A stretch of 64,000 bases of DNA from Cytophagales bacterium (GCA_013297755.1 JAAFIH010000010.1:1-64000), one strand, 5' to 3'; shown: positions 49,377-54,295, counted from the first letter of the stretch. Numbers and translations are program-made. The notes: generated from the letters alone by a model not told the origin.

Positions 49377-50963
49377 TTATTCCATTTGAACTTCTACCAT
49401 TTTTATAAATTCGTTTAAGATTTCAGTTCTGCTTTTTAAAAAAAGATTTGCTAAATCTATACAACTAATAAATATCATACCTACTTTTTCTTCCTTTGCA
49501 TTTAAGGTTAGGTTTTTTCTTAATTGTTCGTGTAGTGAAGGTGCTGAAAAAATACCAATTGTCTTTTTTCTTGGATTGTTATTTTTAAATTTTGAAATAT
49601 GGTCTGGTACAGATGATGCTTCCGAACTGTTCCATTGTGCTCTGTTTCCTCTATAGGTTGTTAATTCAAGAACAAATTGATAATCATTAATTTCAAAAAC
49701 CAAATCAGGGTTCCCATTTTTTCCACCTGGTGCAGGTTTTGCAATACCATATTCAGAAACATCTTCCTTTCCGAACCAGAAAAGCTCATCAATTTTATTT
49801 TCATTTTTAGCAATAGTTAAAAGTTCATTAAAGAGTGCTTCAATTCTACCTCCTTTGAATACATTATGAAAATAATTTTTACCTATTACTTTTAATAGTG
49901 TTTTCAGTTTTAATGAATATTCTTTATCAAATCCTTCATTTTTATTTGAGAAAAAATCCGATACTTTATCACAAACCATTGCAATGGTGAGTTCTTTTGT
50001 TTTGTGTTCTAATTTGAGATTAATCAATTTTATTCGATTCGTTTCTGTAAAAGTCATTTTTGAAGAGTAGGTAACTTTAGATGATAGAAAATCAAACAGA
50101 GATATCACATATTCTTCATTTCTAAATACAGGAAATGAGAATGATTTTTCAAAAATTAAACCATTTGAACGTAATTCGCCATTTTGTTCAATGGTAACTA
50201 GATAGTTTTGTTCATTATTTATCGTAATAGTTGCATCGAATGGAGGAAAAAGTCTTTTGGGATTTGAAAAATATTCTTTCCATAAAAACCAGTCATTTTG
50301 AAAATTATACACTTCAGCATCCTTGAATTGATTAAGTATTTTTTTCGCTTCTTCAACATCAATAAGCTTTATGGCAAGTAGTTTATTTGCTTTTTCTTTA
50401 TTTACCTCAACTTTAGTTCGTTGACAAAGGCCAGTTGAGAAACACAAATACATATAGTAGCCAGCAGAGGGAGCTTTCACTAGGGTTAAATTTCCTTCAG
50501 GAGTTTTTCTGTAAGCATTTATTTCATTCGTACGTTTTGTAGGACTTAAGCTCCTGAAATTTTTAATGCGTTCCAATAAAACAGGAAATTCTTCTTCAGA
50601 TTTGGTGTGAAAGACTATGTAAGCCAGTTCTTCCATATCTAGATAGTCTAACTCTAAAAGTAACTTTAGTGTCATTCTAAAAGGAAAAACTAAATTTTTC
50701 TTTTCATTTAAACTAAAAACATTTGTTTCTGTTTGTTTTAAAAGTTGATTTTTAATAATTTCCTTTTTGGGCGATTCAATAAAATCTTTTCCTATAAGTG
50801 ATAATTGTATTGAACCTGGAATGGAATCTTCATTTATATATTGAGTGCCAAGAAAAAGAGAAGTGTCTTTAATTATTGATTTTTCCTTTAAAATAGAATA
50901 TTTTAAAGGTTTAGAATTTATGTAATCGAATAATTTAATATCTAAACTGCTAATATTTTCCAT
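49377..50963 (-). CDS. AlwI-like type IIS restriction endonuclease
   Basis: 528 residues. The C-terminal third holds a PD-(D/E)xK-like core: GNPDLVFEI followed by FVLELTTYRG (about 420-445), as in the AlwI family, where the last catalytic residue is often Thr after Glu. The upstream half would bind DNA. AlwI itself cuts beside GGATC; the actual site of this enzyme is unknown. Last gene of a four-gene operon with a controller, a methyltransferase and a second nuclease; starts 1 base past the previous stop. Confidence 0.75.
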   Translation of the reverse strand: MENISSLDIKLFDYINSKPLKYSILKEKSIIKDTSLFLGTQYINEDSIPGSIQLSLIGKDFIESPKKEIIKNQLLKQTETNVFSLNEKKNLVFPFRMTLKLLLELDYLDMEELAYIVFHTKSEEEFPVLLERIKNFRSLSPTKRTNEINAYRKTPEGNLTLVKAPSAGYYMYLCFSTGLCQRTKVEVNKEKANKLLAIKLIDVEEAKKILNQFKDAEVYNFQNDWFLWKEYFSNPKRLFPPFDATITINNEQNYLVTIEQNGELRSNGLIFEKSFSFPVFRNEEYVISLFDFLSSKVTYSSKMTFTETNRIKLINLKLEHKTKELTIAMVCDKVSDFFSNKNEGFDKEYSLKLKTLLKVIGKNYFHNVFKGGRIEALFNELLTIAKNENKIDELFWFGKEDVSEYGIAKPAPGGKNGNPDLVFEINDYQFVLELTTYRGNRAQWNSSEASSVPDHISKFKNNNPRKKTIGIFSAPSLHEQLRKNLTLNAKEEKVGMIFISCIDLANLFLKSRTEILNEFIKMVEVQME

Positions 50964-50964
50964 T

Positions 50965-51999
50965 CTATTTTGTTTGAATTAATTTTATTGAACGATTTAA
51001 TTGCAAAAGTAAAACTGCTTGAGTTCCTAAAGGCGTTAAATAAAATTGATTGTCAACTCTAACTAAAAAACCTAATTCAACCGCATAATTTGAAAAAATA
51101 ATTGTTGCTGTTTTTCTAGCCTGTTCTTTATTCCAAGTGTCTGATTTTCCCACTGATTTAATAAAATAATCTTTCAGGTTTTCAAAAGGAATTGGATAAA
51201 TACTTTTTGATAAAACAAATACACATTCAATAATTGAAATTACAGTATAAGTAATAGAAGAATAAAAAGGATTTTCTTTAATAAAATTTGATAATATATC
51301 AATTTGATTTTCATTTAATCTTTCATCTAAAATTTCATTACTTAATTCAACAAATGAATTTCCAAAATCAGTAAGAAAAACATTCTTTTTATTCTTTGAA
51401 ACTAAATCTAATTGTTGTGCAACAGCTATTCTATGATTAATTGTAATTATGGATTTTTCTTCAATTTTTGAAATTTCTATTAAATTCAGGCCTTGCGCTA
51501 AATACGATAATGTATTTTTGATTAAACCAATTCTCACAACTCCATAATCTGCTGATTGAATTTTTAGAAATTGCGATTGCTCTTTAAAGTTTTGATAATA
51601 TCGATTTAAAAAATCTGAAGGACTAAAAGTTATAATCTTAATATTGTACTCTTCACAATTTTTTAAATGCTTATTGTCAAATTCTGGAACCATTATTATC
51701 TTAATAATTTCACCATAAATTAGTTTGTTTTGAGTTTGAAGCTCAATTAAATCATTGTAGTAATTATTTATTTGTTCAATAATTTCTGTGTAAAATGGTA
51801 CAGCTTTTAGTTCAATTAAATAGATTTTATTATTACATAAATACAACAAATCCAATTTTCCACTTCTTAAATTTCTTTGTCTAGAAATTAAACTAATGTC
51901 AGAAATATTTGCAGATAAAATTTCTGATATTAATGATTTATCAGCACATAAGATATCTTCAAGAATTTTTTCAGAAATTGAATATTTAAATTTTGCCAT
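50965..51999 (-). CDS. NucS/DUF91-like nuclease with C-terminal winged helix, in the restriction operon
   Basis: 344 residues. N-terminal PD-(D/E)xK-like nuclease: SRQRNLRSGKLDLLY (Asp near 50) followed by KIYLIELKAV (E-x-K near 62-64), as in NucS-like endonucleases. The middle and C-terminal parts look like winged-helix DNA-binding segments (ISKIEEKSIITINHRIAVAQQL; ARKTATIIFSNYAVELGFLV). It lies 4 bases after the methyltransferase stop and directly before the AlwI-like gene. It could be the partner subunit of the restriction enzyme or a recognition subunit. Confidence 0.65.
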   Translation of the reverse strand: MAKFKYSISEKILEDILCADKSLISEILSANISDISLISRQRNLRSGKLDLLYLCNNKIYLIELKAVPFYTEIIEQINNYYNDLIELQTQNKLIYGEIIKIIMVPEFDNKHLKNCEEYNIKIITFSPSDFLNRYYQNFKEQSQFLKIQSADYGVVRIGLIKNTLSYLAQGLNLIEISKIEEKSIITINHRIAVAQQLDLVSKNKKNVFLTDFGNSFVELSNEILDERLNENQIDILSNFIKENPFYSSITYTVISIIECVFVLSKSIYPIPFENLKDYFIKSVGKSDTWNKEQARKTATIIFSNYAVELGFLVRVDNQFYLTPLGTQAVLLLQLNRSIKLIQTK

Positions 52000-52003
52000 T
52001 TTT

Positions 52004-53200
52004 TCAGTTTAAACAATAAATAAAATTGTTATGATTTACTACAACACAATACCCTCCATTTTTTGTTTTTTCAACTAGACTTACTAATAATTGCTCCATT
52101 TCACTAAAATAAGCATTTAGCATTTTGGGAATTTTATTGTCCCATAATTTTGTATTATTTAAATAATCAATAATTGGGATTAGAACTTTTGAGGTAGTTA
52201 CAATTTTCGTTTTCTTTTTGAAGTCTGCATTTAAGTTTGAAGTTAATGCTGCCTTTCTTAAATTACGTAATTCTTCATACGATTTTACAAACTCACCAAT
52301 CCATAATTCTATTTTATAAACTTCATAATAGTCGAAACAATTTGCATATGGAGGTGAAAAAATTGAAATATCAATTTCATCAATTTTATGGTTATTAATA
52401 TTTAAGCAATTGTCATTAATTATTACCGTTTTATTTTTGTTGTTGTTTAATTTAATATCAGAAATTATTTCATCCAGCTTAAATTTAAATGCTTCAAAAG
52501 TATCAACCGATTTATATATTCGTTTTTTCTTTAAGCCATTTCCAGCTTTTTTATAATATGAAACTTGTTGTAAAATGCATAGTAACGTTGTGAATAATAT
52601 ACTGTTTACTTTTTTGTTTTTTTCTAATTCTATTTTTTTCTTTATCAATTCAATTTTTTCAAAATTTTCAATTTCAAATAAATTTTCAATAATTGATAAT
52701 TCATATTTTTCAAACAGTTTTTTTATCGGTTTATAATTTGGTACTTCAAAATTTTCGAGAATATTAATTTCTTCTTCTGAATAGTTTTGTGTTTTAGAAA
52801 TGGCCATATGGCAACTAAATGGGTTAATTTCTATTCCTGTCGCTTTTATTCCTAATTCTTTTGCCGCAACCAATGATGTTCCAGAACCTGCAAACGGGTC
52901 AAATAAATGAGTACTTCCATTAAGATTTAAATATTTAAGTACTTTTTTAATTAACTCAGGCGAATAACCTTCTTGATAATAAAACCATCTATGAATTGGT
53001 AAATTTTTTGTTTTAGAAAAGTTTACTAAATATTGATAAGTAAGGTCATATCGGGTATTAAACTCAACATCGAGCTTTTTATATTCATTATAAAAAAAAT
53101 CGGTCTTATAGTCTTCCTTTGCATTAAGATTTGGGTAGAATAACAATAGTTGTTCATTAACCTCATTTATTTCTTCTTCTATTAAATATACTTTCTCCAT
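52004..53200 (-). CDS. DNA methyltransferase (N4-cytosine or N6-adenine), apparently short at the C-terminus
   Basis: 398 residues. Motif I DPFAGSGTSLVAA (101-113, AdoMet) and motif IV FSPPYANCFDY (about 284-294). SPPY is most typical of N4-cytosine enzymes. The 175-residue gap between them holds the probable target-recognition part. After GGYCVVVNHNNF, where related enzymes continue for another few dozen residues, the chain stops. TAATG overlap with the controller gene; the next gene follows at once. It would protect host DNA from the nuclease(s) of this operon. Confidence 0.85.
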   Translation of the reverse strand: MEKVYLIEEEINEVNEQLLLFYPNLNAKEDYKTDFFYNEYKKLDVEFNTRYDLTYQYLVNFSKTKNLPIHRWFYYQEGYSPELIKKVLKYLNLNGSTHLFDPFAGSGTSLVAAKELGIKATGIEINPFSCHMAISKTQNYSEEEINILENFEVPNYKPIKKLFEKYELSIIENLFEIENFEKIELIKKKIELEKNKKVNSILFTTLLCILQQVSYYKKAGNGLKKKRIYKSVDTFEAFKFKLDEIISDIKLNNNKNKTVIINDNCLNINNHKIDEIDISIFSPPYANCFDYYEVYKIELWIGEFVKSYEELRNLRKAALTSNLNADFKKKTKIVTTSKVLIPIIDYLNNTKLWDNKIPKMLNAYFSEMEQLLVSLVEKTKNGGYCVVVNHNNFIYCLN

Positions 53201-53499
53201 TACCTTTTACTTTTATTATATTTAATTTTTTCCTCCGCAACAAGCATAGCTTGTAAAGCCAAATCTTCGTCTTGAACTTCGTAATAAAGTTTGTCAGAAA
53301 GCCAAGCAATTATAACTTCATTCTTTTGGTCTTTATAAAAATTTGATAGTGATTTTACTTGCTCTTTTGTCGGCATTCGTTTGTCCTGCTCAATTTTACT
53401 TAAAATTGTCGGGTCAAGCGAAAGTTTAGCTCCAACTTCTCTAAGCAGAAGTCCTTTAGCCTCTCTCAATTCCCTGAGTATTGTTCCGATTGTTTTCAA
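53200..53499 (-). CDS. XRE-family controller of the restriction operon
   Basis: About 100 residues. A helix-turn-helix domain (GTILRELREAKGLLLREVGAKLSLDPTILSKIEQ) of the C-protein kind fills the N-terminal two thirds. Small regulators of this kind time methyltransferase and nuclease expression. There is no ATG: TTG 53499 is preferred to TTG 53532, which lies inside a -7 box. The stop overlaps the methyltransferase ATG by one base (TAATG). Confidence 0.82.
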   Translation of the reverse strand: MKTIGTILRELREAKGLLLREVGAKLSLDPTILSKIEQDKRMPTKEQVKSLSNFYKDQKNEVIIAWLSDKLYYEVQDEDLALQAMLVAEEKIKYNKSKR

Positions 53500-53529
53500 T
53501 GTGCCTTGTTTTGACTTGACAAATATTGG

Positions 53530-53564
53530 CAAATGTAAAAAGAATATTTTGAACCACCGTCAAA
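53530..53564 (-). promoter_or_regulatory. Probable promoter of the restriction operon
   Basis: Minus-strand -7 TACATTTG (53537-53530) with a possible -33 TTTG (53564-53561) at 23 bases, at the long end of the accepted spacing. Confidence 0.45.
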
Positions 53565-53881: not shown

Positions 53882-54295
53882 TTATTTGGTAAGACAATAT
53901 GTTAATGAATGAATAATTAATTGTTTACTTCTGTTCATTGTGTTGTGCTTATTTTTGATGTCTGCAAACAAAGTATCGTCTTTTGCTTTGATGTCAAAGC
54001 CGCTTAAATTACCAACTTCAAAACCTTTTATACTTCCTAAAATTTGTTCGTGAAATGTCCCAATTGAATTGTTGATTGATTTATCAATTTGCCTCAAAAA
54101 TTCAGCTTGGATAAGGCTTTCCTCGTCTATGTTGTTGAAATTTGTGTCAAAAGTTAGTTTGATTGTATCAACTTTATTTGAGTAGAAATTCTTTTTCGTG
54201 ATATTGTTCTTTGCTTTCAAATATGCTTTGTGCAGATTACCAATGCAACCCAACAAATGGTCGTCCGAAATGAAGTTTACGTATTTATTTTTCAT
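53882..54295 (-). pseudogene. Truncated Eco47II/Sau96I-type restriction endonuclease
   Basis: 137 residues, against roughly 230 for family members. MKNKYVNFISDDHLLGCI, FHEQILGSIKG and SGFDIKAKDDTLFADIKNK (holding the Asp and part of the D-x-K core) are clear Eco47II-family segments. After NKHNTMN the sequence departs to an unrelated 16-residue tail, so the C-terminal half is gone. No frameshift restoring it was found downstream. No cognate methyltransferase is next to it. Probably an inactive remnant. Confidence 0.75.

Follow-up and report, generated by a model that had tools for sequence, protein, structure and literature searches.

We consider it probable that four genes in a 64,000-nucleotide stretch of Cytophagales DNA (the window) are the scar of a type II restriction-modification (R-M) system, in which a gene for a free-standing nuclease was inserted at the junction of the methyltransferase (M) and endonuclease (R) genes and inactivated the resident system; the nuclease would belong to a family that has done so repeatedly. 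This reading is built on the truncation of both neighbours, on junctions flush with the intervening gene, on the recurrence of the arrangement in independent events, on purifying selection acting on the nuclease gene and on the fold of its product.

The genes follow one another on the minus strand as a sequence-only reading had described them, in the order XRE controller, methyltransferase, NucS-like nuclease and AlwI-like nuclease, and its family assignments stand (Table 1). Two unrelated nuclease genes are indeed present. That reading took them for parts of a single restriction system, an idea that now appears unlikely; it missed that the AlwI-like gene is shortened at its 5' end, so that neither M nor R is complete.

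Table 1. Genes, domains and junctions of the locus, with two neighbouring restriction genes (window coordinates)
Feature	Position	Strand	Evidence or remark
Type IIG restriction-methyltransferase, 1299 aa	42495..46394	-	DUF7149-DUF7814-Eco57I-TaqI_C; PDLC03612 1.6e-282; by rny/zapA
AlwI-family endonuclease (R), 528 aa, 5'-truncated by family profiles	49377..50963	-	RE_AlwI 2.1e-12 (Pfam)
Right junction	50963..50965	-	1 base from NucS-like stop to R-gene ATG (sequence)
NucS-like nuclease, 344 aa, intact	50965..51999	-	22-sequence alignment; AF2 model
Tandem winged-helix domain, residues 145-344	50968..51567	-	Superposes on FokI and Nt.BspD6I recognition domains
NucS/EndoMS-type PD-(D/E)xK nuclease domain, residues 9-132	51604..51975	-	5gke_A Z 13.8, 2vld_A Z 13.4
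Left junction	51999..52005	-	M stop, 4 bases, ATG of NucS-like gene (sequence)
N4/N6-type DNA methyltransferase (M)	52004..53200	-	N6_N4_Mtase 1.5e-10 (Pfam)
XRE-family HTH controller, 110 aa, TTG start	53200..53532	-	HTH_3 4.1e-9
Truncated Eco47II-family endonuclease	53882..54295	-	Pfam positions 1-119 of 202, 1.4e-47; partner M not adjacent

The resident methyltransferase and endonuclease

The methyltransferase retains motif I (FDPFAGSGTS) and motif IV (FSPPY, within FSPPYANCFDY). In an alignment with six relatives from different phyla its match stops at GGYCVVVNHNNF, and the relatives run on for about 60 residues past its end (...VGNSxY...R...SSQQ...RESIV), the final conserved block being absent from the window protein. 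Against a profile of the six, 437 positions long, the window protein stops at position 376, whereas 24 relatives extend to positions 402-436, the three with the highest scores to 436. The earlier remark that M is abnormally short was thus correct: the gene is truncated at its 3' end, with about 60 C-terminal residues gone. A frameshift was considered and rejected, as none of the other frames past the stop codon resembles the lost C-terminal region and the next gene begins 4 bases on. The enzyme belongs to an SPPY-type class other than that of the methyltransferases of AlwI operons, and some of its relatives are arranged in tandem with another methyltransferase and an HNH or other gene. Upstream, the C-terminal part of the XRE protein matches (51% over 41 amino acids) a fragment preceding the M gene of the best methyltransferase relative (L048:4438-4560), and the controller probably served the original R-M operon as its C protein.

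The endonuclease scores 47.2 bits against RE_AlwI, for which the Pfam gathering threshold is 23.1 bits, and so falls within the AlwI family. It is a distant member, its closest relative within the phylum showing 34% over 85 amino acids, and a search for closer AlwI relatives found none; for this reason its truncation is argued from family profiles. In the match to PADLOC PDLC03422, residue 69 of the protein corresponds to residue 131 of the profile, and the two C-termini end level. An N-terminal motif, TT(V/M)RNPxRIxxFLxVL, is found in all seven AlwI-family proteins compared (from the window's phylum, Bacillota, Pseudomonadota and Campylobacterota) and is absent from the window protein, while the catalytic part is retained (NPDLVFE...ELT...RAQW). 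By these comparisons R is 5'-truncated, with about 60 residues missing.

In known AlwI-family systems (AlwI, BspD6I, PleI/MlyI) the endonuclease is of the same family as the window R, with one or two Dam-type methyltransferases adjacent to serve both strands. Among the AlwI genes whose context was examined (G271 and six plasmids), each has either a single large methyltransferase or a pair of N6-type enzymes (of Dam type in the plasmids), and none has a NucS-like gene. At the window locus, in contrast, R lacks its N-terminus, the sole adjacent methyltransferase is the truncated SPPY-type enzyme, and a NucS-like gene lies between them. No second methyltransferase, of the AlwI-type Dam class, is adjacent; the organism's own genome does contain several other N6/N4 methyltransferase genes. 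None of these is a second enzyme of the window type, as only the window locus matches in that genome.

It had also been proposed that M modifies the DNA and that the two nucleases, NucS-like and AlwI-like, cut one strand apiece, as in heterodimeric type IIS enzymes, or share the recognition of the site. The tight operon, the absence of stop codons from all four genes, the retention of catalytic residues in both nuclease cores, and the membership in or resemblance to the BspD6I/FokI world that both nucleases display would suit such a working system. However, the final strands of the M fold and the N-terminus of R are missing, and these breaks flank the NucS-like gene itself. In BspD6I-type heterodimers, moreover, the small subunit and the catalytic domain of the large one are homologues, whereas the nuclease domain of the NucS-like protein is of NucS and not of AlwI type. 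No other NucS-like locus contains an AlwI gene. A working system of this kind is thus highly improbable. Because the NucS-like gene is absent from AlwI operons and turns up repeatedly where R-M systems of other types are broken at the junction, it is better seen as an intruder or replacement than as a partner of AlwI. What survives of the supposed undescribed architecture is the gene order, which we did not meet as a described system; a functioning pair of nucleases is unsupported.

Recurrence at broken M/R junctions

A five-sequence alignment of the nuclease, searched against 84,980 species genomes, returned 26 loci, or 25 after merging L096 and L097, which share a contig. The relatives lie mostly in metagenome-assembled genomes, from Ignavibacteria, Bacteroidia, Scalindua, Deltaproteobacteria, Spirochaetes, Patescibacteria, Nitrospirales, Planctomycetes and others. 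On the shared contig (BNTQ01000076.1) the nuclease gene with its associated small ORF (where a locus has one), referred to below as the cassette, occurs twice in inverted orientation, possibly as an assembly palindrome.

After fragments of M genes had been spotted upstream, the flanks were mapped with a protein panel covering both M and R. Remnants of R-M genes flank the nuclease gene in 19 of the 25 loci, in the same orientation: upstream pieces run from the start of M, and downstream pieces run to the end of R. The other six have no remnant recognised by the panel, and three of these lie near contig ends. Upstream, the M remnants are of three types, termed T1 (SPPYNLKNSTGNGMK type), T2 (THINCLTAKEW type) and T3 (the window type), and downstream the R remnants are of MvaI/BcnI type or EcoRII-C-like. 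The upstream M gene is complete in two of 16 cases (L088 and L101), with a further one (L080) lacking its last dozen residues, and 13 of 15 downstream R genes are missing at least their first 17 residues. The right edge of the cassette usually falls 0-24 bases beyond the nuclease stop codon. The positions of the breaks within the host genes vary by locus: T1-type M genes end after residues ~26, 50, 65, 70, 100, 127, 170 and 229, and MvaI-type R genes resume at residues ~18 to 224.

On a reading by defence-island turnover, the nuclease could be a commonplace restriction gene, solitary or of type IV, whose R-M neighbours have been worn by repeated rearrangement, the breaks being unrelated to it. 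The truncated Eco47II gene 350 bases upstream and the type IIG gene nearby do mark the region as rich in R-M genes and partly decayed. Solitary restriction genes beside corrupted methyltransferases have been documented in general (PMC3488263) and resemble the present case in that a restriction-type nuclease lacks an intact methyltransferase. Here, however, the nucleases form an unrelated family that is met again and again where the M/R junctions of many R-M types are broken, and a 5' piece of M, the nuclease and a 3' piece of R follow one another in a single orientation in 12 or more independent loci. Random wear is disfavoured because this order and orientation recur with breaks at the cassette edges, and we regard turnover as very unlikely.

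Two comparisons bear on the independence of the events. The cassettes of L099 and L083 are 35% identical, while their M remnants are 82% identical; those of L088 and L094 are likewise 35% identical, beside R remnants at 73%. Cassettes so much more divergent than the remnants around them indicate that similar R-M systems were entered independently and repeatedly.

Cassette-free systems served as a control. T1 is the commonest M type among the disrupted systems, and the control set comprised 10 T1 systems from 198 genomes of the window's phylum and one from a plasmid. All 11 cassette-free T1 methyltransferases are intact, most with R directly adjacent, so that T1 M is truncated in 9/9 loci with the cassette and in 0/11 without it (Fisher p = 6e-6). 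A T2 methyltransferase found without the cassette is also intact and lies 16 bases before an intact MvaI-type R, a pair that shows the former state of the broken T2 loci.

A small ORF often directly precedes the nuclease gene. It encodes a zinc-ribbon protein in seven loci (examples are L088:5777-5992 and L081:5809-5970) and a 'QDFVDN' protein in eight. The zinc-ribbon protein is probably a physical partner of the nuclease, as the two are fused in L081. The QDFVDN protein is of ~70 amino acids (L094:5774-5989, L098:5381-5572, and similar), is in frame with M remnants in L096 and L098, and matches nothing in Pfam, PADLOC or NCBIfam. The window locus has neither partner gene, a point against insertion, as are the six loci without recognised remnants. 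A second small ORF (...VTHW...LPE-P... type) directly follows the nuclease in L083 (3316-3520), L085:1487-1708 and perhaps L093.

Such an association might instead be old: M, cassette and R would once have formed a single system to which the small ORF and the NucS-like gene were accessory, perhaps as a Vsr-like mismatch nuclease that protected systems of CCNGG type, and the present loci would be its decayed remains, with the accessory gene kept. Most of the disrupted systems do have R genes of MvaI/BcnI or EcoRII-C type, the nuclease domain has the NucS/EndoMS fold, and L088 is nearly intact, with M, zinc-ribbon ORF, nuclease and R consecutive. Against this, the deletions run up to the cassette edges at one locus after another, the divergence of the cassettes does not follow that of M and R, and cassette-free T1 and T2 systems are common and intact. 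The SPPY motifs of the M types are, moreover, typical of m4C methyltransferases, and m4C gives no T:G mismatches. This alternative is unlikely. Nevertheless, as M is complete in both L088 and L101 and R is nearly complete in L088, some lineages may possess a working operon of M, nuclease and R.

To return to insertion, the original operon would have comprised a C regulator, an m4C/m6A-type methyltransferase and an AlwI-type endonuclease. The nuclease gene would have entered the M/R junction, with the end of the M gene and the beginning of the R gene lost, and its relatives, often with a small upstream partner gene, would have entered other R-M operons likewise many times. Somewhat short of an even chance, in our estimation, is the further step that the cassettes, made up of a NucS-type nuclease with a FokI-like head and often a zinc-ribbon or QDFVDN partner, are mobile and replace M/R junctions, as parasites or successors of R-M systems. 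In L101 a complete T3 M gene, a BsoBI fragment and a T2 fragment precede the nuclease, and an EcoRII-C-like remnant follows it; L095 is similar. Both loci look as though the unit had brought along pieces of a site that it occupied before. Against insertion, the cassette loci yielded no recombinase, no terminal repeats and no constant point of entry, and inspection by eye revealed no DNA motif common to their left edges. Empty sites were sought in two genomes of the same genus, where one flanking gene only was present on the contigs examined, without synteny.

Homing endonucleases and free-standing mobile nucleases offer a parallel, in that a nuclease gene is repeatedly found inside other genes and apparently moves with scraps of its neighbours (L101, L095). 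Homing endonucleases, however, occupy one homologous site, and the function of the host gene is kept by splicing. Here there is no common target site, the breaks vary, the targets are unrelated families of R-M operons, and both host genes are truncated, so that these genes are destroyed and not preserved. The open-access papers searched contain no description of NucS-like genes that return at the junctions of M and R.

The nuclease and its possible role

In sequence the likeness to NucS that had been proposed is weak: nothing in Pfam exceeds the cut-off, and the NCBIfam NucS model gives 13.5 bits (0.027) for the whole protein, far below its cut-off of 216. In fold the likeness is clear. An AlphaFold (AF2) model built from 21 sequences has a mean pLDDT of 88, and its residues 9-132 superpose on the catalytic domain of NucS/EndoMS (2vld, 5gke) with Z scores of 13-14. 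The core residues of that domain (R-Q, G-x-x-D, E-x-K and Q) are shared, R40, Q41, S46, G47, D50, E63-x-K65 and Q76 being invariant in the 22-sequence alignment. Unlike NucS, the window protein has no N-terminal dimerisation and DNA-binding domain, its nuclease domain beginning at residue ~9; it has tandem winged helices at the C-terminus, and it is found in R-M loci.

The winged helices, which the sequence-only reading had also recognised, are borne out by fold comparison. Residues 145-344 superpose on the recognition domains of FokI (2fok_A residues 7-320, Z 10.5, 176 residues aligned) and of Nt.BspD6I of the AlwI family (5lhc_A residues 3-280, Z 9.8, 175 aligned); many proteins with a single winged helix give similar scores, so these matches are telling mainly through their length, and the absence of other families from the fold search is no evidence against them. 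In FokI and Nt.BspD6I the order of domains is inverted relative to the window protein, which places the nuclease first, has a catalytic domain of NucS type and shows no sequence similarity to either. The inserted protein is thus predicted to be a restriction-type enzyme that combines catalysis by a NucS/EndoMS fold with FokI/BspD6I-like reading of DNA. That this architecture could signify type IV or Mrr-like modification-dependent restriction is only suggestive.

Nearly all copies of the nuclease are intact (frameshifts occur in L086 and L099), whereas the neighbouring M and R genes are wrecked, and dN/dS for the nuclease is about 0.06 over the four pairs for which dS could be estimated. What selection maintains at these loci is therefore the nuclease.

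R-M systems are not easily lost, since a cell in which the methyltransferase is gone while the nuclease lingers will die. If M and R were lost together, no unprotected active restriction enzyme would be left and the cell would survive. The cassette may thus disarm methyltransferase and restriction enzyme in one step to the benefit of its carrier; we hold this part of the mobile-cassette proposal as tentatively as the whole. If true, a nuclease that lands between M and R and breaks both would provide a natural route for the elimination of addictive R-M modules. The intact nuclease, perhaps expressed from the old R-M promoter, would then act without a methyltransferase, and for that reason its target may be modified DNA (in the manner of type IV enzymes), a long or rare site, or abnormal DNA. 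This would point to an uncharacterised restriction-type enzyme, with an EndoMS fold and FokI-like recognition, under strong purifying selection without a methyltransferase. A dead R-M operon taken over in this way, with a function and mobility that we infer, is of more interest than the two-nuclease system first claimed.

The disrupted systems consist mostly of SPPY (m4C-type) M genes with R genes of CCNGG-type families, which hints at a link between the nuclease and m4C or CCNGG-type modification. Among the 25 carrier genomes, one has an intact T1 system elsewhere (L101, T1-MvaI-like), which speaks against attack by the nuclease on that methylation.

Viral contigs and phages contained no NucS-like relative, and plasmids a single distant archaeal copy, on the Halobaculum plasmid NZ_CP119991.1 (L006:7986-9071; 24%). 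It lies beside a dpd (7-deazaguanine DNA) cluster, with genes for a DpdA-like TGT, QueC/D/E, FolE and helicases, and is thus again in a DNA-modification setting; possibly it is the restriction nuclease of that 7-deazaguanine system.

Among the R genes, the EcoRII-C-like endonuclease (~355 amino acids; weak Pfam match, 0.0024) is represented by L083:3584-4609, L118:4114-5178 and L121:4310-5371. It pairs with T1 methyltransferases, and behind that M type it is interchangeable with MvaI/BcnI-type R genes.
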